Shown: piece by piece, positions 45,665 through 52,478 of the stretch
How the letters are laid out: each line of letters begins with the position of its first letter
How positions within the stretch are numbered: the first letter of the stretch is position 1
Assembly: GCA_020148145.1 (NCBI GenBank)
Contig: JAHCRE010000016.1
Location: forward strand, 228,827 to 281,340
Length of the DNA: 52,514 nucleotides
Source: Patescibacteria group bacterium
Lineage (GTDB): Bacteria > Patescibacteriota > Minisyncoccia > Minisyncoccales > JAHCRE01
Direction of reading: 5' to 3'
Translations under genes and position numbers: made by a program
The notes under the pieces: model-generated
Seen by the model: only the letters and a program-made list of their open reading frames with translations
Told to the model about the DNA's origin: nothing
The model's database searches: none

Positions 45665-45706
45665 CCCCGAGAAAAACCCTCGCCGCGCTATGCGCGGCAA
45701 GGGTGA
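45665..45706 (-). terminator. Terminator with palindromic extension, after the MTH1-like gene
   Basis: On minus ACCCTTG-CCGCGC-ATA-GCGCGG-CGAGGGT, followed by TTTTCTCGGGG and a U-rich tract. The CCGCGC/GCGCGG palindrome sits inside the CCCTCG...CGAGGG stem. Confidence 0.7.
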
Positions 45707-45716
45707 AAATAACTTT

Positions 45717-46211
45717 TTAAATATTTTTCACGAATTTAATATTGTGTTTTTCTACAACTTCTTCTCTGTCAAAAATAAAGTCTGCTTTTAATTTCTTACC
45801 CTTCAAAATATGGAGGAGCCAGAATTTATCATCTGACCACATCTCGTTAAATGGAATTTCTGATTCTTTAAACCATTTTGGGGTCATTTCTTTAGTCTCG
45901 ACAGGTTTTCCTTCCCAATTTTTAACTAAGAACACATGGACTTCTTGATCCCACCTTTGCTCTTTGGCAATATTGGGGAAATAAAAATTTAAAATAGCTA
46001 CTTTTTCTAATTCCTTTATTTTGACCCCAATTTCTTCTTTAGTTTCTCGAATAGCAGCATCAAAGATATTTTCATCTCCTTTTTTGGGGTTTAATTTTCC
46101 TCCAACCCCATTCCATTTCCCAGCCCCAAAACCCTTCTTTTTCATAGCTAAAAGTATTTCCTTGCTCCCTTGATTTTCTTTAACTAATAAACACAAAGTC
46201 GCCTTTTTCAC
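45717..46211 (-). CDS. 8-oxo-dGTP diphosphatase, MTH1-like Nudix
   Basis: 164 residues. It resembles animal MTH1 (NUDT1) more than E. coli MutT: the segment KKKGFGAGKWNGVGGKLNPKKG aligns with human [20 protein letters not shown], and the rear EEMTPKWF...IPFNEMWSDDKFWL aligns with DEMRPCWF...IPFKDMWPDDSYWF. The Nudix box GDENIFDAAIRETKEEIGVKI is complete. It should hydrolyse oxidised purine nucleotides (8-oxo-dGTP, perhaps 2-OH-dATP). It is followed 21 nt upstream by the V4R-like gene. A good ribosome site is not obvious. Confidence 0.9.
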   Translation of the reverse strand: MKKATLCLLVKENQGSKEILLAMKKKGFGAGKWNGVGGKLNPKKGDENIFDAAIRETKEEIGVKIKELEKVAILNFYFPNIAKEQRWDQEVHVFLVKNWEGKPVETKEMTPKWFKESEIPFNEMWSDDKFWLLHILKGKKLKADFIFDREEVVEKHNIKFVKNI

Positions 46212-46887: not shown

Positions 46888-47100
46888 CTAACGCAATAGG
46901 GATATAACTTGGATAATAAAACCAAAAGCAATAAGAATTAAAGCAAAATATCTTTTTATCCGGTAGCTTCTAATAATCTTTGCTCTTGAAGTTCCTTTCT
47001 TGTCATGAATTTTTTCATTCATCATTGCCGGATCTGAAAATAATAGTAGAGTTACCACCCCTGAAAAATCAATAATTAAACCGTATAGTTGTAGTTCCAT
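46888..47100 (-). CDS. Small two-helix membrane protein
   Basis: 70 residues. Two hydrophobic helices (LYGLIIDFSGVVTLLLFS and RYFALILIAFGFIIQVISLL) flank a basic cytoplasmic loop (NEKIHDKKGTSRAKIIRSYRIKR). No family recognised. It may be a holin-like or regulatory mini-protein, a guess only. It lies about 30 nt downstream of a repeated hairpin and extended -10 module (47131-47160), which probably drives its transcription. Confidence 0.6.
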   Translation of the reverse strand: MELQLYGLIIDFSGVVTLLLFSDPAMMNEKIHDKKGTSRAKIIRSYRIKRYFALILIAFGFIIQVISLLR

Positions 47101-47130
47101 ATTTTATTTCCATTAGTTTCGCTTTTTATT

Positions 47131-47160
47131 ATTCTACCAAAAAATCGCCCGAAGGGCGAT
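47131..47160 (-). promoter_or_regulatory. Hairpin plus extended -10 module, upstream of 46888-47100
   Basis: On minus: ATCGCCC/GGGCGAT stem (47144-47160), U-rich TTTTTT, then TGGTAGAAT (extended -10, 47131-47139). One of a repeated set; see the findings. Confidence 0.65.
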
Positions 47161-47179
47161 TGGCGGCGGGGCGGGCGGA

Positions 47180-47208
47180 AATAAAAAAGCCAGGCGTTAA
47201 AAACCCGG
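47180..47208 (-). terminator. Terminator of 47242-47511
   Basis: On minus GCCGGG-TTTTTAACG-CCTGGC (one G-U pair) followed by TTTTTTATTT. Confidence 0.75.
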
Positions 47209-47241
47209 CATAGGTTGTAGGTTATTTTGTTTTTACAACCT

Positions 47242-47511
47242 CTATTCTCGAGAGACAAATTTTATGATAAAGTTCTTGGCCCCAGCTATTAAACCTAAAC
47301 CTGGGAATCCAGCCGAAGCTAGAAAGTGTCCTACGACATCTTTAGTCTTAATAGCAACTGTGAATCTTCTTGGATTAAGCCCACTTCTTACTACAAATTT
47401 ACTAAGTTTTTCGTCGAGTCGCTCTTTAAAGTCCTCGGGGGTTGGGTACTGTTCTGAGGAGTACCAAACCAAGAAAATCTCTCTCTGTACTACTTGTACC
47501 TTTTGTTTCAT
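47242..47511 (-). CDS. Small protein, unknown function, with an upstream overlapping frame
   Basis: 89 residues, mixed alpha/beta (REIFLVWYSSEQYPTPEDFKERLDEKLSKFVV; FTVAIKTKDVVGHFLASAGFPGLGLIAGA). The ATG at 47511 has no Shine-Dalgarno sequence. The strong AGGAGG of the transcript sits 50 nt upstream and instead serves a GTG frame (47426-47554, 42 codons) that overlaps this start in another frame. Translation may be coupled through that frame, or the GTG frame may be the real product. No family recognised. Confidence 0.5.
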   Translation of the reverse strand: MKQKVQVVQREIFLVWYSSEQYPTPEDFKERLDEKLSKFVVRSGLNPRRFTVAIKTKDVVGHFLASAGFPGLGLIAGAKNFIIKFVSRE

Positions 47512-47554
47512 AAATAACCTCTATCAGGGCTGGGACGCAATACTGAGGGTCCAC
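47426..47554 (-). CDS. Possible 42-codon leader or alternative ORF with strong Shine-Dalgarno site
   Basis: GTG start 8 nt after a perfect AGGAGG (47563-47568), from a promoter of its own (47582-47610). It overlaps 47242-47511 by about 86 nt out of frame and ends TAA at 47426. The peptide begins VDPQYCVPALIEVIYETKG. Either a coupling leader for the 89-residue protein or a chance frame; I favour coupling weakly. Confidence 0.3.
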   Translation of the reverse strand: MDPQYCVPALIEVIYETKGTSSTERDFLGLVLLRTVPNPRGL

Positions 47555-47581
47555 TCTCTTTACCTCCTTTGTACTAGTAGC

Positions 47582-47610
47582 AGTATAGGGTTTAATTTAA
47601 GACTTGTCAA
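47582..47610 (-). promoter_or_regulatory. Promoter of the 47242 unit
   Basis: TTGACA (47605-47610), 17-nt spacer, TATACT (47582-47587). Near-consensus, followed by AGGAGG in the leader. Confidence 0.7.
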
Positions 47611-47629
47611 GCGTTGGTCAATCAAAACC

Positions 47630-47668
47630 CCCGAGAAAAACCCTCGCCGCGCTATGCGCGGCGAGGGC
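47630..47668 (-). terminator. Terminator with CCGCGC palindrome, after the DUF2061 gene
   Basis: On minus CCCTCG-CCGCGC-ATA-GCGCGG-CGAGGG followed by TTTTTCTCGGGGGTTTT. It is very similar to 45665-45706, and the reverse-orientation relative is at 48047-48078. Confidence 0.7.
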
Positions 47669-47682
47669 GAAAAATAAAAATT

Positions 47683-47730
47683 GCCCAGCCCCGCACCGTA
47701 CGGTGCGGGGCCCCAGCGACGGGCTTTTTT
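47683..47730 (+). repeat. Terminator-like GCCC-AGCGAC-GGGC unit carrying a palindromic insert
   Basis: The unit GCCCAGC...AGCGACGGGC TTTTTT contains a 25-bp insert (47690-47714) with CCCGCACCG/CGGTGCGGG arms. The same unit without the insert is at 48092-48105. AGC is repeated at both sides, as a short target-site duplication would give. Confidence 0.75.
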
Positions 47731-47786
47731 AAATTCCCTTTAACTCCGCCCTAAATATCTTTCTTTAGTTGGAAAATGTCAGTATT

Positions 47787-47996
47787 TTAAACTCGGAGTC
47801 GTCCCCAACTAGTCCTATTCCATAACCGCTCGTGAATATAGTAAAGAATTAGTTTTAAAATTACTTCAAAGAAACCAACTCCAAAAGAAAGCAGAATCTC
47901 TCCTGTAAAAATAAATACTATTATCATCGTTGTCAACGTTGCGAGAAATCTCCAGCTTATTGATTTTATAATACTTCTTCGATGATTAGCTTTCAT
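47787..47996 (-). CDS. DUF2061 membrane protein
   Basis: 69 residues. It shows the full DUF2061 pattern: RRSIIKSISWRFLATLTTMIIVFIFTGE, then GVGFFEVILKLILYYIHERLWNR. Two membrane helices with a conserved cytoplasmic start and the E-x-K-x-x-YY-HER end. The family is sometimes found next to sulfate-assimilation genes, but no such genes are here, so the function is open. It is a single-gene unit followed by the terminators at 47630-47730. Confidence 0.9.
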   Translation of the reverse strand: MKANHRRSIIKSISWRFLATLTTMIIVFIFTGEILLSFGVGFFEVILKLILYYIHERLWNRTSWGRLRV

Positions 47997-48046
47997 ATTT
48001 TTTGTCTTTAACCTTTAACGGATTATACCAAATTAAAGCTTCGATA

Positions 48047-48110
48047 AGAACCCCGCCGCGCATAGCACGGCGAGGGTAAAAAATAAAAATTGCCCAGCGA
48101 CGGGCTTTTG
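48047..48110 (-). terminator. Compound terminator downstream of the PlsY-like gene
   Basis: On minus: GCCCGTCGCTGGGC stem (48092-48105), then AATTTTTATTTTTTA, then CCCTCGCCG-TGCTATG-CGCGGCGGGG. This is the uninterrupted version of the 47640-47730 arrangement. Confidence 0.65.
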
Positions 48111-48125
48111 GTTTAAATTTCCCTT

Positions 48126-48146
48126 GCCCTGAGCTTGTCGAAGGGC
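48126..48146. repeat. GTCGAAGGG-type palindromic element
   Basis: GCCCT/AGGGC arms around GAGCTTGTCGA. It interrupts an AAATTTCCCT|CAACTTCG unit that is continuous at 51401-51418. Confidence 0.7.
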
Positions 48147-48159
48147 TCAACTTCGGCTC

Positions 48160-48187
48160 GCCGTCCGGAGCTTTAGCGAAGGACGGC
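48160..48187. repeat. GCCGTCC-type palindromic element, copy 1
   Basis: Perfect 7-bp arms GCCGTCC/GGACGGC around GGAGCTTTAGCGAA. It is identical to 51423-51450, and both are inserted in AACTTCG|CTAAATTTT units. Confidence 0.75.
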
Positions 48188-48201
48188 CTAAATTTTGTCG
48201 A

Positions 48202-48870
48202 TTAACCGTCAGAGGTCCGTCCTCTGTTTTTTAATAAATGGCCTCGTCTTTTTAGGGTGTCTCTATCTAGAAAGAATCGATATAAAATTATTTTTTTATC
48301 TTTTATCTTCCATAGGCTTCCTGGCTTTCCCAAAACCCGTTGCAAGAGGACTAAGAATAGAGCTGGAATAGAAAATATATAAACCGATTCAATTTCAAAA
48401 TAAAATCCTAATATTATTGCCGAGATTGGAAAAAGAAGCATTCCTATTGATGATCCTTTGTCCCGGGAGATAATTTTGCAAAGGAGCCACAAAGCAGCTG
48501 AAATGAGAAGAATTTTCCAAGATAATATTGAAAGCACTCCAATCAACACTGATCCTCCTCTTCCTCCCCAAAAATTCAAAAAAAGTGGCCACATCTGACC
48601 ACAAAGAGCAAAGACACCAGCTAAAGCCTGAAAAGCTATTGAAAGGCCCAGTGTCTGGGCTCCAAAAACAGCCAGCACTCCTTTAAAAACATCAAGCACT
48701 CCCGAAAGTAATCCCGGCAGCATTCCCACATTCTGGATAATATTTGAACCGCTAAGCTTTTGATAACCCAATTTTCGAATATCCTTTCCACTCATCCACT
48801 TTGTAATCAAATAACCATTGGGAATGGAGGCAAAAAGATAAGAAAATAAAATCCAAAGAAATTCAATCAT
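48202..48870 (-). CDS. plsY: PlsY-like glycerol-3-phosphate acyltransferase, divergent
   Basis: 222 residues with about six membrane helices. The three PlsY motifs are partly visible: SIPNGYLITKW (motif 1), SGSNIIQNVGM in place of GSGN-GATN (motif 2), and GQMWPLFLNFWGGRGGS in place of GHxxPVFLxFKGGKG (motif 3). It should move acyl from acyl-phosphate to glycerol-3-phosphate for phospholipids. The Arg for Lys and lost Thr/Asn make activity uncertain, so a lipid-related paralogue is possible. The end (residues 200-222) is a basic, Arg/Lys-rich tail that overlaps repeat DNA. Confidence 0.78.
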   Translation of the reverse strand: MIEFLWILFSYLFASIPNGYLITKWMSGKDIRKLGYQKLSGSNIIQNVGMLPGLLSGVLDVFKGVLAVFGAQTLGLSIAFQALAGVFALCGQMWPLFLNFWGGRGGSVLIGVLSILSWKILLISAALWLLCKIISRDKGSSIGMLLFPISAIILGFYFEIESVYIFSIPALFLVLLQRVLGKPGSLWKIKDKKIILYRFFLDRDTLKRRGHLLKNRGRTSDG

Positions 48871-48926
48871 ATAGTTATTTTAACATATTTTTACTTTTGC
48901 CATGCAATTTTTATCTTTTTTCAATT

Positions 48927-48955
48927 AAATTTCTCTCAACTTCGCCCTAAATTTT
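48927..48955 (+). repeat. Intergenic AAATTT-CAACTTCG-CTAAATTTT unit, empty copy
   Basis: Continuous AAATTTCTCTCAACTTCG-CC-CTAAATTTT, the form without insertion. Filled relatives lie at 48117-48193 and 51401-51458; shorter forms at 47737-47755 and 50820-50838. Confidence 0.65.
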
Positions 48956-48986
48956 GGTGATTTTTTTGACGATGTTAGGACCCGTT

Positions 48987-49496
48987 TTATCCCATAATTT
49001 GGTTTATTATTTGCTCTGGTGATTGGTTTGCGCCAATAAAAGGCATTTTCAACTCTGCTGCCTGCCGACGTATAGTTTCCATGTATTTAATCACTAAATC
49101 TGTTTGTTCTTTTGTTTTTCCCATTGGGTTTAATCTGCTTTGGTTTTTGAGACGCTTTTTTATCTCTGCGGGGCTAATATCTAAATAATAAACCTCGTCG
49201 AATAAATCTAGCATACTAAAACAATTTCCTGAAAACCCAAAGATTATAGCTGGTTCATTTTCTTTAATGAATTTTTGCAACACCTCTCGATCCCAAAGAA
49301 ACTCATGTTCGTCCAACCATTTCTTATCAGCGTTCTTTGGAAATTCAACAGGCTTTTTATCCCAGCCGAACCAATCAGAAAGATCTTGAATTTCATCAGA
49401 ATCATAGATAAATGGATATTTATTTTTTAGTTTTTTTACAATGTATGTTTTTCCTGAGCCAGAAATACCAATCACAAGTATGTTTTTATTCTTCAT
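48987..49496 (-). CDS. P-loop NTPase/kinase of the AAA_33 or adenylate-kinase type
   Basis: 169 residues. The Walker A motif opens the protein (VIGISGSGKTYIVKKL). A middle block FPKNADKKWLDEHEFLWDREVLQKF and the SPAEIKKRLKNQSRLNPMGK lid-like segment recall small nucleoside or metabolite kinases with an Arg-rich lid. The substrate is unknown. It could phosphorylate a nucleotide, shikimate-like compound or tRNA end. A hairpin and TGGTAAAAT module (49503-49530) stands directly upstream, and the ATG follows it by 6 nt. Confidence 0.75.
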   Translation of the reverse strand: MKNKNILVIGISGSGKTYIVKKLKNKYPFIYDSDEIQDLSDWFGWDKKPVEFPKNADKKWLDEHEFLWDREVLQKFIKENEPAIIFGFSGNCFSMLDLFDEVYYLDISPAEIKKRLKNQSRLNPMGKTKEQTDLVIKYMETIRRQAAELKMPFIGANQSPEQIINQIMG

Positions 49497-49502
49497 ATTT
49501 TT

Positions 49503-49530
49503 ATTTTACCAAAAAACCGCCCTCTTGGCG
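49503..49530 (-). promoter_or_regulatory. Hairpin plus extended -10 module, upstream of 48987-49496
   Basis: On minus CGCC/GGCG stem, TTTTTT, then TGGTAAAAT (49503-49511), 6 nt before the ATG. Confidence 0.6.
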
Positions 49531-49552
49531 ATGCGGCGGGGCGGGCGGAAAT

Positions 49553-49575
49553 AAAAAAGAGAGTATTAGTCTCTC
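49553..49575 (-). terminator. Terminator overlapping the stop of 49566-49757
   Basis: On minus GAGAG-ACTAATA-CTCTC followed by TTTTTTATTT. The stop codon TAA lies in the loop. Confidence 0.8.
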
Positions 49576-49757
49576 CTATATTCTTTAAAACACTTTTTAC
49601 ATAAATGAATTTCACATTTAAATCCCTTATAATCAAACCAGATGTGCCAAGCTTTACGCATATATCTTTGGCAGTTAGCACAGTGAAAACCTCTATATTC
49701 TGGCTTTTGGTTTATATTCCAAGATTGAACAGTTTTTAATAATTTTTCTTTATTCAT
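49566..49757 (-). CDS. Small zinc-ribbon protein
   Basis: 63 residues. Two CxxC pairs, FHCANCQRYM and IHLCKKCFKEY, about 30 residues apart, form a typical zinc-ribbon or treble-clef unit; a Trp/Tyr-rich centre (KAWHIWFDYKGFKCEI) lies between them. It is likely a nucleic-acid- or protein-binding zinc finger. I do not know the family. It has its own module promoter (49764-49802) and a terminator that overlaps the stop codon. Confidence 0.7.
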   Translation of the reverse strand: MNKEKLLKTVQSWNINQKPEYRGFHCANCQRYMRKAWHIWFDYKGFKCEIHLCKKCFKEYRRD

Positions 49758-49763
49758 TCTTTC

Positions 49764-49802
49764 ATTCTACCAAGAAATCGCCTTTCAGGCGATTTCTTGG
49801 TA
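49764..49802 (-). promoter_or_regulatory. Hairpin plus extended -10 module, upstream of 49566-49757
   Basis: The longest version: 15-bp arms TACCAAGAAATCGCC/GGCGATTTCTTGGTA (49768-49802). TGGTAGAAT follows on minus (49764-49772), 6-7 nt before the ATG. Confidence 0.7.
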
Positions 49803-49845
49803 ACCTCCAAAGAAAAATTCTCGGCGGGGTAGAGAAAAATAAAAA

Positions 49846-49872
49846 AACGGATGCGTGACCCGTTATTTTTTT
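49846..49872. terminator. Terminator of the membrane protein at 49882
   Basis: AACGG/CCGTT stem with T-tract on both strands (TTTTTTT on minus). Confidence 0.75.
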
Positions 49873-49881
49873 GTAGCTACG

Positions 49882-50199
49882 TTATGAGAGGGGATAGATA
49901 TTTGTTCCAAAAATTACACCGGTTATAAAAGTGAAAAGACCGAACAAGGCAACAGCCACTAGGATTGTGATTATTGAGCCCTTGGTGCACAAATCTTCCC
50001 ATAACTTTGCAACAGTGAAAGAGCCTAGTAGTGCTATTGTGACGCTTGGGATTACTGTAAAGATTAGTATTGCCCCTATTTTTTCGTTAGGGCATGAAAA
50101 GACAAAGTATTCAATTGTTACCATACACGCTATCAACGAAAGCCATACTTTCAGCCATTTTACAAAGATCTGTCTTTCGCTCCATGTAAATATCCTCAT
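49882..50199 (-). CDS. Small polytopic membrane protein
   Basis: About 105 residues from MRIFTWSERQIFVKWLKVWL, start at 50199, chosen because GGAGG lies 11 nt before it and the upstream frame (to 50250) falls within the promoter. Three to four hydrophobic helices follow (LSLIACMVTIEYFVF; GAILIFTVIPSVTIALLGSF; IITILVAVALFGLFTFITGVIF). No family recognised and no charged motif that would suggest a transporter. It forms a unit with promoter 50222-50250. Confidence 0.65.
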   Translation of the reverse strand: MRIFTWSERQIFVKWLKVWLSLIACMVTIEYFVFSCPNEKIGAILIFTVIPSVTIALLGSFTVAKLWEDLCTKGSIITILVAVALFGLFTFITGVIFGTNIYPLS

Positions 50200-50221
50200 G
50201 CAGTGTTTTACCTCCAAAATC

Positions 50222-50250
50222 AAACTATCACAGATTCCAATAATTGTCAA
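50222..50250 (-). promoter_or_regulatory. Promoter of the membrane protein at 49882
   Basis: TTGACA (50245-50250), 17-nt spacer, TAGTTT (50222-50227). A GGAGG follows in the leader. Confidence 0.55.
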
Positions 50251-50262
50251 AATCCTAAGAAT

Positions 50263-50287
50263 AGAAATCGCCCAAAGGGCGATTTCT
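50263..50287 (-). terminator. Hairpin of the ATCGCC family, terminator of the SRPBCC gene
   Basis: Perfect 11-bp stem AGAAATCGCCC/GGGCGATTTCT with AAA loop. On this copy the -10 that follows in others is replaced by a TTGACA promoter. Confidence 0.55.
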
Positions 50288-50335
50288 CTTGGCTCTGAAC
50301 CGTGGGCAATTTTAGAAGTTGGCTTGGTTATAATA

Positions 50336-50779
50336 TCATTTCTCTAGCATCTCTTTTAACTTATCTATAACAGCACGCTTCCAGAAACGCATCGCATACC
50401 ATTCTATCAGAACCCTACCGAAAATGCGAAAAAATGGATTTTTTAATTCAACATCATAAGTATAGTTAATTTTTGTGCCCTCTGGTACTTCTTCCATCAG
50501 AAACTCTTCATGCCCGGCAGTGCCGATAGCACTTTTATTATCTGACACATAGCCAGCTGGCGGACGAAGCTGCGTTTCCATATGCACTGGAATAACCCGA
50601 CCGAATGTTTTAGCTTTAGCTTCTATTGTAAGATTATTGCCTTCTCTTTTAACTATACGGAGCGATTGGGCAACAGCCGGAAAATTCTTTGGCATGTTTT
50701 CAAAATCAGTCATTATTTTGTAAATTTCTTCACGCGGCGCTTTAATAATCCATGAACCTTTTAGGCGTATTTTCTTCAT
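50336..50779 (-). CDS. SRPBCC (START-like) domain protein
   Basis: 147 residues of the polyketide-cyclase/RatA/COQ10 fold. Starts with IRLKGSWIIKAPREEIYKIMTDFENMPKNFPAVAQSLRIVKREGNNLTIEAKA, the classical first strand and helix, and ends with a long C-terminal helix (RFWKRAVIDKLKEMLEK). Such proteins bind lipids, quinones or ring compounds in a hydrophobic pocket, or act as RatA-like regulators. The ligand is unknown. Short beta strands in the middle (VPEGTKINYTYDVEL) complete the sheet. A module promoter (50786-50815) stands 7 nt before the ATG. Confidence 0.85.
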   Translation of the reverse strand: MKKIRLKGSWIIKAPREEIYKIMTDFENMPKNFPAVAQSLRIVKREGNNLTIEAKAKTFGRVIPVHMETQLRPPAGYVSDNKSAIGTAGHEEFLMEEVPEGTKINYTYDVELKNPFFRIFGRVLIEWYAMRFWKRAVIDKLKEMLEK

Positions 50780-50785
50780 ACTTTA

Positions 50786-50815
50786 ATCCTATCAAGAAAT
50801 CGCCTTTCCGGCGAT
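50786..50815 (-). promoter_or_regulatory. Hairpin plus extended -10 module, upstream of 50336-50779
   Basis: On minus ATCGCC-GGAAA-GGCGAT, then TTTCT and TGATAGGAT in place of TGGTAGAAT, 6-7 nt before the ATG. Confidence 0.6.
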
Positions 50816-50850
50816 AGAAAATTTTCAAATTCGGTCTAAATTTTTGTCCC

Positions 50851-50882
50851 GTAGTGAGCGCGAAGCGCTCTACTTCGGGATT
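50851..50882. repeat. CCCG-TAGTGAGCGC palindromic element
   Basis: Long imperfect stem, CCCGTAGTGAGCGC with GCGCTCTACTTCGGG, loop GAA. It interrupts the TTTTTGTC region of the intergenic unit. Confidence 0.6.
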
Positions 50883-50893
50883 AGTGAAGGATA

Positions 50894-51142
50894 TTAGGGC
50901 CCGTTTTTTCTCGTTAATAAGAGAGTCTTAAGAGCGATTATCGCCCAAACTATATTTAAAGCCATTGCTGGCCAAGCTTTTTGAACAAAAGTATTCCAAA
51001 CAATACCAATGGCTCCAAACAAATTTAGAAGTTGATAAGACTGAGACTCGCCAGTGACTTTTTTTGTTGAAACAAGATAATAAGCAATAAGAATAAACGC
51101 CATTCCAATCCAACCAGCAATTGTCGGTGAAATATTTTCCAT
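50894..51142 (-). CDS. CBU_0592-like membrane protein
   Basis: 82 residues with three hydrophobic segments. The series GWIGMAFILIAYYLVSTKKVTGES, YQLLNLFGAIGIVWNTF and WPAMALNIVWAIIALKTLL matches the CBU_0592 domain family by pattern. The conserved YQLLNLxGAxG and ALNxxWxxIA motifs are intact. Its biochemical role is not known. A GAGG ribosome site lies 6 nt before the ATG, downstream of a TGGTAGAAT module. Confidence 0.85.
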   Translation of the reverse strand: MENISPTIAGWIGMAFILIAYYLVSTKKVTGESQSYQLLNLFGAIGIVWNTFVQKAWPAMALNIVWAIIALKTLLLTRKNGP

Positions 51143-51150
51143 ATTACCTC

Positions 51151-51180
51151 ATTCTACCAAAAAATCGCCTTTCCGGCGAT
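51151..51180 (-). promoter_or_regulatory. Hairpin plus extended -10 module, upstream of 50894-51142
   Basis: On minus ATCGCC-GGAAA-GGCGAT, TTTTTT, TGGTAGAAT (51151-51159), then GAGG and the ATG. Confidence 0.7.
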
Positions 51181-51187
51181 AAAAAAT

Positions 51188-51203
51188 TGTCCAGCGATGG
51201 ACA
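51188..51203 (-). terminator. Terminator of the mini membrane protein
   Basis: GTCC-ATCGCT-GGAC on minus followed by AATTTTTTA. It is the same unit as GCCCAGCGACGGGC (48092) with compensating base changes in the stem. Confidence 0.65.
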
Positions 51204-51205
51204 GT

Positions 51206-51370
51206 TTATTTTTTAGATATTTTCTTCTTTAACCATTTAAATAAATAATTGAATCCAACCGGAAGCAATCCAACAATTAAGACTATAGTCCATAACCACC
51301 AAAGCGGTTTTATGGTATAAGTCCAAATTCCTTTTATTAATTCTAAAGTAGAGACATCTATTATCTTCAT
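51206..51370 (-). CDS. 54-residue mini membrane protein
   Basis: A 54-codon frame starting MKIIDVSTLELIKGIW. One membrane helix (LWWLWTIVLIVGLLPVGFNYLF) and a basic tail (KWLKKKISKK) give an N-out, C-in topology by the positive-inside rule. It fills the space between the phosphatase gene and the CBU_0592-like gene, ends right before a terminator, and has no competing frame. No family recognised. A Shine-Dalgarno site is not visible, so confidence is moderate. Confidence 0.55.
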   Translation of the reverse strand: MKIIDVSTLELIKGIWTYTIKPLWWLWTIVLIVGLLPVGFNYLFKWLKKKISKK

Positions 51371-51422
51371 GTAAAATTTTCGTATAAATCAACTCAAATT
51401 AAATTTCCCTCAATTTCGGCTC

Positions 51423-51450
51423 GCCGTCCGGAGCTTTAGCGAAGGACGGC
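51423..51450. repeat. GCCGTCC-type palindromic element, copy 2
   Basis: Identical to 48160-48187. It lies in an AAATTTCCCTCAATTTCG|CTAAATTTTT unit and splits it cleanly. Confidence 0.75.
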
Positions 51451-51469
51451 CTAAATTTTTGTTTAAATT

Positions 51470-51994
51470 TCAAAAATTATATTCCCAATAGGGTTGCCAC
51501 TTAAAAGGTTCGCTTAAACATTCTTCAAGAGTTTTGCCACCGACAAGTGTATCCAAACCATATTGAGTAGCACGATGACCAACAACTAAAACTATTTTGG
51601 TTGGATATTTTTCTTTTAATTCTTTGTAAAAATCGTGAACTCTCGCCATTGCCTGTTCATAACTCTCACCATTCGGAAAAGGTTCTTTAATATGCTCTTT
51701 TTCCATTGGACTTACTATATTGCTTGGTTTACCATTGTAATCTCCGTAATTTACCTCTCTTAATCTTTTATCAACGATGGTGGGTATTTTATCTCCAAAT
51801 GCTATTTTAACTGTATCAACTGCTCTTTTTAAATCAGAGCAACAAATTAAATCTATTTTTATATCTTTGAATCTCTCTCCTAATTCTTTGGATTGTTCAA
51901 CTCCTAACCCAGAAAGCTCTACATCTTTCCAACCAGAAGATAATCCCTCTTCGTTATCCTTACTTGTTGCGTGAGCGGAAAAGTATATTTTCAT
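51470..51994 (-). CDS. Histidine phosphatase family protein, altered active site
   Basis: 174 residues of the phosphoglycerate-mutase-like fold. The usual RHGE reads SAHAT at residues 6-10, so the first His is kept but the following Gly and the preceding Arg that bind phosphate are changed. ICCSDLKRAVDTV, LREVNYGDYNG and VVGHRATQYGLDTL (second His) are normal. It may be a phosphatase of reduced or changed specificity. It is a separate gene from the phosphatase domain inside ileS. The ATG is 15 nt from the end of the next gene upstream. Confidence 0.85.
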   Translation of the reverse strand: MKIYFSAHATSKDNEEGLSSGWKDVELSGLGVEQSKELGERFKDIKIDLICCSDLKRAVDTVKIAFGDKIPTIVDKRLREVNYGDYNGKPSNIVSPMEKEHIKEPFPNGESYEQAMARVHDFYKELKEKYPTKIVLVVGHRATQYGLDTLVGGKTLEECLSEPFKWQPYWEYNF

Positions 51995-52008
51995 AGATTT
52001 TAAAAATT

Positions 52009-52440
52009 TTATCTAATTTTAGCCAAATCACCATTAAGAATTATCGGTTGCATTGCTTTAATTTCATCTTCATAAAGCATATCGGGAATTTCGTTTAGCA
52101 AAAAGATTTTCTTGCCAAAAACATAGGCAAATCCCATTTCAAGAAAGACATTACCACCGATATAACCCCTAATTCCATTTTTCTCGAAATTTAAAACTAA
52201 AATAGCATCGACTCCTTTAATTCTTTCAAAGTAATATTTAAGAGAGTTTTGTTTTATTGCTCTCTTTGAGATTTCACCGTTTTCTTTCTCTTTCATAATC
52301 TGCTCAAAGGCTACTTCACCATTCAGAATCATTTCAACAGTTTGGGGTAGAATTACCTCGTGACCCTGCTCGGTAAGATTATTTGCTATATCTCTTATTT
52401 GATTGGTGAAATCTAAACTGACACAGATTGCAATTTTCAT
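52009..52440 (-). CDS. Nucleoside 2-deoxyribosyltransferase-like protein
   Basis: 143 residues, alpha/beta Rossmann-like. MKIAICVSLDFTNQIRDIANNLTEQGHEVILP starts like a flavodoxin-type strand-loop. The block GVDAILVLNFEKNGIRGYIGGNVFLEMGFAYVFGKKIFLLNEIP has the GG-x-E-x-A pattern (GGNVFLEMGFA) of the deoxyribosyltransferase/YtoQ family, in which the Glu is catalytic. It may shuffle nucleobases or act on NAD-like molecules. A module promoter (52449-52478) is 8 nt before the ATG. Confidence 0.72.
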   Translation of the reverse strand: MKIAICVSLDFTNQIRDIANNLTEQGHEVILPQTVEMILNGEVAFEQIMKEKENGEISKRAIKQNSLKYYFERIKGVDAILVLNFEKNGIRGYIGGNVFLEMGFAYVFGKKIFLLNEIPDMLYEDEIKAMQPIILNGDLAKIR

Positions 52441-52448
52441 ACTTTCTT

Positions 52449-52478
52449 ATTCTACCAAGAAATCGCCTTTCCGGCGAT
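52449..52478 (-). promoter_or_regulatory. Hairpin plus extended -10 module, upstream of 52009-52440
   Basis: On minus ATCGCC-GGAAA-GGCGAT (52462-52478), TTTCT, TGGTAGAAT (52449-52457), then the ATG at 52440. Confidence 0.7.

Follow-up and report, generated by a model that had tools for sequence, protein, structure and literature searches.

What does a short sequence do when a hairpin, a run of T and a promoter-like -10 recur together, on one strand, in front of gene after gene? The question is raised by a 52,514-nt stretch of DNA from Patescibacteria group bacterium (order Minisyncoccales; GenBank assembly GCA_020148145.1, contig JAHCRE010000016.1, positions 228,827 to 281,340), which we call the window. 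It is the final 52.5 kb of a 281-kb contig, and the home genome is 809 kb in 26 contigs and 96% complete. For the element that recurs here, the analysis establishes a sequence architecture, a fixed geometry, restriction to one order, a constraint at the -35 position and, on weaker evidence, a pairing constraint, together with no detectable Rho. We consider it likely that the element is an intrinsic terminator fused to an extended -10 promoter of the sigma70 type, both working in one direction and sharing bases. The RNA of the upstream gene would fold a UCGCC-N5-GGCGR hairpin followed by U6 and be released. The 5' arm with the first loop base (TCGCCA) would fill the -35 position of the next promoter, the remainder of its 17-bp spacer would consist of the 3' arm and T-run, and TGGTAGAAT would serve as extended -10. 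The next gene's transcript would then begin about 7 nt further, at its ATG or next to it, so that about half of the copies would yield a leaderless mRNA, and the module would insulate single, mostly leaderless gene units in compact genomes in which Rho was not detected. The original prediction for this locus had the hairpin and the promoter as successive parts of a cassette, and missed that the 5' arm lies in the -35 position and that bases are shared.

Copies were collected with a composite pattern (at most 2 mismatches, with the reversed pattern as control) in the home genome and 80 relatives. The consensus is an A-tract, TCGCC-N5-GGCGR, T6 and GGTAGAAT, a module of roughly 36 bp whose geometry is nearly fixed among copies. 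In a logo of 194 aligned copies, the shape of which is influenced by the search pattern, conservation begins about 6 nt before the hairpin and at its strongest runs as far as TAGAAT (AAAAA TCGCC aagaa GGCGR TTTTTT GG TAGAAT). The extended -10 has TGn ahead of a TAnnnT hexamer, with TGGTAGAAT as its consensus, and an unbiased check in the home genome agrees. Three proteins with sigma70 region 2 are encoded in that genome, one RpoD-sized and two ECF-sized. The ATG lies 6-9 nt past the -10 in 99/194 copies, a leaderless class without a Shine-Dalgarno sequence; ordinary genes of the home genome likewise show a peak of ATG distance, at 6 and 8 nt from the -10. Because the usual spacing from the -10 to the transcription start is 7 nt, a gap of 6-9 nt would yield a leaderless mRNA. 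The rest are leadered, with leader lengths of about 13-78 nt. A side observation concerns these leadered copies: AAAGGTC or a close form stands near the expected 5' end in 16/67, compared with 0.7 in shuffles, and leaders of this type, with the motif within the first 3-12 nt after the -10, are found at L232, L242, L120, L099, L161, L020, L091, L183 and others.

Are the hairpin and the promoter fused, or do they merely adjoin? TCGCCA starts exactly 23 bp 5' of TAGAAT, which places it at -35, a 17-bp spacer away from the -10. Our surveys of terminators and promoters in the home genome cover 433 kb, window included. Among the 117 intergenic terminators in this sample, 10/13 of the TCGCC class are directly followed by a -10, compared with 8/104 of the others, and most intergenic TCGCC-N5-GGCGR hairpins bear both a T-run and a -10 (the reverse reading of the palindromes being excluded). 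With the ATG peak at 6-9 nt, these counts support, at the level of sequence, the original idea of a terminator hairpin with U-run, an extended -10 and a nearly leaderless start. A less biased sampling took the bare anchor TTTTTTGGTAGAAT as the sole query and gave 121 distinct sites to read: 55 have a TCGCC or TTGCC hairpin; of the 66 others, 24 show a clear hairpin of another sequence, and some probably match by chance within coding DNA. The first -35 position is T in 73% of the 66 non-TCGCC sites, and in the fused elements with other hairpins the T is retained in 20/24 despite their differing stems and loops (background 0.21). Leaderless-type promoters of the home genome (45, a few degenerate composites included) have T at the start of the -35 in 80% of cases, and mostly T or G at its third position, whereas just 25% of 73 plain terminators in that genome have T at the equal distance from the T-run. 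The T of the leaderless promoters, the T of the alternative-hairpin fusions and the low T of plain terminators support a role of the TCGCCA arm as -35, and the hairpin and promoter are best read as fused rather than merely adjacent.

In the window, sequence reading and pattern matches place six copies of the element, all on the minus strand, at the very sites of the original prediction, with every hairpin and every -10 found there. Each runs from a hairpin, ATCGCC(N5)GGCGAT or GGCGGT, through a T-run and a TGGTAGAAT-type extended -10 to a start codon. The copies, with the unfused variant, are as follows:

52440..52478, minus strand: element 1, hairpin 52462-52478, -35-like TCGCCG 52472-52477, T-run, TGGTAGAAT 52449-52457; leads the minus-strand ORF 52009-52440, ATG with first base at 52440, 8 nt after the -10 (sequence, pattern matches, terminator scan).
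51142..51180, minus strand: element 2, hairpin 51164-51180, -35-like TCGCCG 51174-51179, TGGTAGAAT 51151-51159; leads the minus-strand ORF 50894-51142, ATG 8 nt after the -10; an additional terminator, TGTCCATCGCTGGACA, lies immediately upstream at 51188-51203 (sequence, pattern matches, terminator scan).
50779..50815, minus strand: element 3, hairpin 50799-50815, degenerate -10 TGATAGGAT 50786-50794; leads the minus-strand ORF 50336-50779, of SRPBCC/polyketide-cyclase fold, ATG 6 nt after the -10 (sequence, pattern match, terminator scan).
49757..49797, minus strand: element 4, extended palindrome 49773-49797 with hairpin core 49777-49793, TGGTAGAAT 49764-49772; leads the minus-strand ORF 49566-49757, ATG 6 nt after the -10 (sequence, pattern matches).
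49496..49532, minus strand: element 5, hairpin ATCGCC-AAGAG-GGCGGT 49516-49532, -35-like TCGCCA 49526-49531, TGGTAAAAT 49503-49511; leads the minus-strand ORF 48987-49496, AAA/kinase-like, ATG 6 nt after the -10.
47100..47161, minus strand: element 6, of the leadered class, hairpin ATCGCC-CTTCG-GGCGAT 47144-47160, TGGTAGAAT 47131-47139; leads the minus-strand ORF 46888-47100, ATG 30 nt after the -10 (sequence, pattern matches, terminator scan).
50199..50287, minus strand: unfused variant, hairpin 50267-50283, then a separate TTGACA promoter at 50245-50250, a leader with GGAGG, and an ATG at about 50199.

Of the unit first described, ATCGCC-GGAAA-GGCGAT, the GGAAA loop occurs in just three window copies, and GGCGGT is an alternative 3' arm. 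The stated gap of 5-10 nt between -10 and start codon describes five copies (6-8 nt) and not the one at 47131, with its 30-nt leader. At 50263 the variant was described correctly, a hairpin with a TTGACA promoter in place of the extended -10. The hairpin pattern matches six times in the window against 0.06 expected from shuffles, a count that includes the variant at 50267 and leaves the 49516 copy outside the pattern. Folding energies of the window hairpins range from -7.8 to -15.5 kcal/mol (consensus hairpin, -11.0), and a terminator scan recovers 5/6 of them, the 49777 copy being absent from its list. The promoter scan gives element 5 as TCGCCA-17-TAAAAT with TG. Element 4 and its gene show 82% DNA identity to a genome of the same family (L152), as far as 49799.

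The motif of the original prediction also recurs across the genome, with 26 copies in the home genome (at most 2 mismatches) and 0 for the reversed control. Of the 80 relatives, 53 carry the element and none the control; nearly all are of the same order, from dozens of families, and copies are clustered and co-oriented. The bare anchor is present in 50/80 genomes. Among 145 genomes sampled across the phylum, matches with at most 1 mismatch occur only in the home genome and five others, one copy each, and the anchor, the home genome aside, gives 11 hits in 8 genomes against 5 control hits, near the control level. An exact search over 84,980 species returned 95 stretches, for which a chance estimate from the specified positions is well under one. 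Where titles name a group it is Patescibacteria, save for one "uncultured proteobacterium"; many titles say only "bacterium". Elsewhere, the labels of contigs with the element read Nealsonbacteria, Gribaldobacteria, Parcubacteria or Patescibacteria, in line with the placement of the home genome; one contig from a viral collection carries the exact element. The "uncultured proteobacterium" contig and the viral contig (L124 and L189) are possibly misassigned Patescibacteria DNA. The element is order-specific and nearly absent from the remaining phylum.

How well does the hairpin suit a terminator? The upstream gene is codirectional in 131/147 cases, and the window's two exceptions are opposite-strand open reading frames that overlap a better codirectional gene. 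Another terminator-like hairpin lies at most 200 nt upstream in just 21/178 copies. The base opposite the fixed stem T is A or G about equally, and one stem pair shows coupled double changes from C-G to T-A (p=2e-4). The Rho protein was not found in the home genome, and when 40 genomes of the order (home and 39 relatives) were searched, no protein reached the family cut-off; we take the weak hits, whose open frames span about 450-541 aa, for related ATPases. Because Rho was not detected, intrinsic termination is probably the main transcript-ending route in the order. The non-detection fits the fusion and does not prove its cause. A second terminator family was also seen, GCCC(A/G)TCGCTGGGC with a T-rich tail, which sometimes stands immediately 5' of the element; its sites are 48092-48105 and 51188-51203 in the window and L190, L193, L199, L203 and L207.

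Several points weigh against a fused terminator and promoter. Neighbours are divergent in 16/147 cases, in part owing to spurious open reading frames, and the U-run, six T and then GG, is no more than moderate. Evidence for pairing falls short of that for the -35, since a partner-shuffle covariation test over all near-consensus stems gave no signal. TCGCCA matches TTGACA at 4/6 positions, and the p=1.5e-10 obtained for the 20/24 retained T is too small, because the 24 alternative hairpins include several related ones; to this comes the imprint of the search pattern on the logo. A weak or divergent Rho may have escaped detection, as may one encoded in the 4% by which the home genome is incomplete. 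That RNA ends and starts at the element, that the main sigma factor is used and that translation is leaderless we infer from sequence.

Which genes stand behind the element? In the window they are one SRPBCC gene, one AAA-kinase gene and four without a Pfam match. Elsewhere they include NUDIX, CYTH, PD-(D/E)XK, Maf, exonuclease VII, MgsA, rubrerythrin and others, and, from our reading of the sequences, genes that we take to be EngB and ObgE; core genes also carry the element. Homologues of element-led genes are mostly without it, with 15 element-element pairs compared with 75 element-other pairs, in a set of loci biased towards elements. One candidate identity was a known RNA family, but a search of Rfam 15 gave one sub-threshold hit, off the element, at 47634-47711.

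The original prediction had suggested modular gene capture or a co-regulated set, and neither suggestion found support. In the first case the element would be a mobile cassette boundary, a recombination junction, integron-like or homologous between copies, at which genes are captured with their own promoter. The clustering and co-orientation of copies would suit this, and element pairs with homologues on both sides number 0/53 (1/31 in a stricter run). In L152 the gene and element are conserved and the DNA farther upstream is not. For a few genes whose proteins are about 95% identical in different families, the shared sequence extends from the 3' arm of the hairpin into the gene, so the module can, on this comparison, apparently travel with a gene; but a promoter naturally moves with its gene. 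Two-sided synteny is similarly low at other junctions: control gaps of at least 60 nt have both sides shared in 7/101, from which the elements' 1/31 is not clearly different. No integron integrase was found, the two tyrosine recombinases of the home genome scoring 91.4 and 29.1 bits to TIGR02249 against a cut-off of 265, and core genes are included. We consider a cassette boundary unlikely, and rejected integron-like cassettes on the lack of such an integrase and on synteny not clearly unlike the controls. A DNA uptake signal was likewise rejected, since ATCGCC occurs 161 times against 154 expected and the arms are not over-represented.

Some further features of the DNA between genes deserve mention on their own account. 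An intergenic repeat, GGTTCTAACATCGTCC with a GGAGC-like stretch, stands just past many stop codons, with 76 hits in the relative loci compared with 5 for the reversed control and 15 compared with 5 in the home-genome sample; its sites include 48970-48985 (minus strand) in the window, L199, L202, L206, L207 and relative loci. This repeat stands upstream of some elements, but was set aside as a recombination site, since it lies within 150 nt of just 25/187 elements. The window also has three copies of one large hairpin, CCCTCGCCGCGC-nnn-GCGCGGCGAGGG, in both orientations (45673-45725, 47637-47689 and 48046-48098), and an intergenic direct repeat of 51 nt whose two copies are 98% identical and hold a GCCGTCC/GGACGGC stem (48146-48196 and 51409-51459). 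A small contig of the home genome (L052) resembles a defence or mobile island: it encodes a tyrosine recombinase of 352 aa besides a DNA cytosine methyltransferase-like open reading frame and an ATPase-like one.

In the second case, the palindrome would be a regulator site overlapping the promoter, and the genes would be controlled jointly. A palindrome over the -35 and spacer is in the usual location for a regulator, and the primary sequence of the arms is kept across families, yet the downstream genes are functionally scattered and from diverse families, and the 15 to 75 pair count, in the same element-biased loci, has most homologues without the element. The fixed left T, whose partner is A or G about equally, is better explained by RNA pairing than by a symmetric operator, and fused elements with quite different hairpins occur. 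We consider such a regulon operator quite unlikely. Mere coincidence, in which terminators and promoters adjoin through the short gaps of compact genomes and common ancestry keeps the copies alike, is quite improbable and already disfavoured: although both parts are of known kinds and some copies are clearly of shared descent, other home-genome terminators rarely have an immediate -10, the geometry is nearly fixed, different hairpins retain the -35 T and plain terminators do not, and other genomes of the phylum are almost without the element.

If the element is a terminator fused to a promoter, how new is it? Like intrinsic (Rho-independent) terminators, it has a G+C-rich hairpin directly followed by a T-run, 3' of a codirectional gene; unlike them, it has a nearly fixed stem and a 5-nt loop, is repeated across an order and is joined to the next promoter. 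With extended -10 sigma70 promoters it shares TGnTAnAAT and a -35-like hexamer at 17 bp, but its -35 and spacer are built of a terminator hairpin and U-run, and TAGAAT predominates over TATAAT. Bacterial leaderless genes (PMC3160421; in mycobacteria, PMC3898074) also have a -10 right before the start codon and no Shine-Dalgarno sequence, whereas those behind the element are tied to a terminator hairpin and their transcript starts are predicted from sequence. In Neisseria and Pasteurellaceae, too, one short sequence, the uptake signal, recurs in the terminator hairpins of a genome, but about a thousand or more times (PMC1852404), compared with about 26 copies of the element, whose arms are not over-represented. 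Start-associated sequences of cluster K mycobacteriophages (PMC3203893) are short repeats a few bases 5' of the start codons of varied genes, about half with an inverted repeat upstream; their sequence and hosts are different, the role proposed for the 13-bp repeat was in translation initiation, and no -10 is fused to a terminator there. Intergenic repeats of halovirus HF2 bear promoters, as shown by reporter assay in HF2, but these are archaeal TATA/BRE promoters without a terminator fused in (PMC8707807). We found no account of the fused module in the literature searched, with most subscription journals outside the search; the parts are each of a known kind, and the fusion and its clade-wide use are undescribed as far as that search reached.

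One further step would be a functional coupling, in which polymerase terminated at the U-run lands on the next promoter and restarts, so that transcription of one gene feeds the next. In vitro, a terminated polymerase can diffuse and restart at a nearby promoter, and the authors of that work expect such recycling to depend on the distance between terminator and promoter (PMC6978380). Recycling is a mechanism seen with E. coli polymerase and not a sequence element; in the element the distance is zero, and reuse is hypothetical. We regard the coupling as doubtful. If it is true, element genes would have a relay in place of operons, with their mRNAs kept separate.

Patescibacteria are mostly uncultured, and their gene expression signals are little known experimentally. 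If the fused terminator and promoter is real, one short motif would mark where transcripts end and begin and, for half of its copies, the true start codon, and would improve gene calling in Patescibacteria genomes. It would also be a natural terminator and promoter with common bases, occurring where Rho was undetected, and a ready test system for the restart of terminated polymerase at a promoter at zero distance. The module appears to be a compact means of separating neighbouring genes in genomes without detected Rho.

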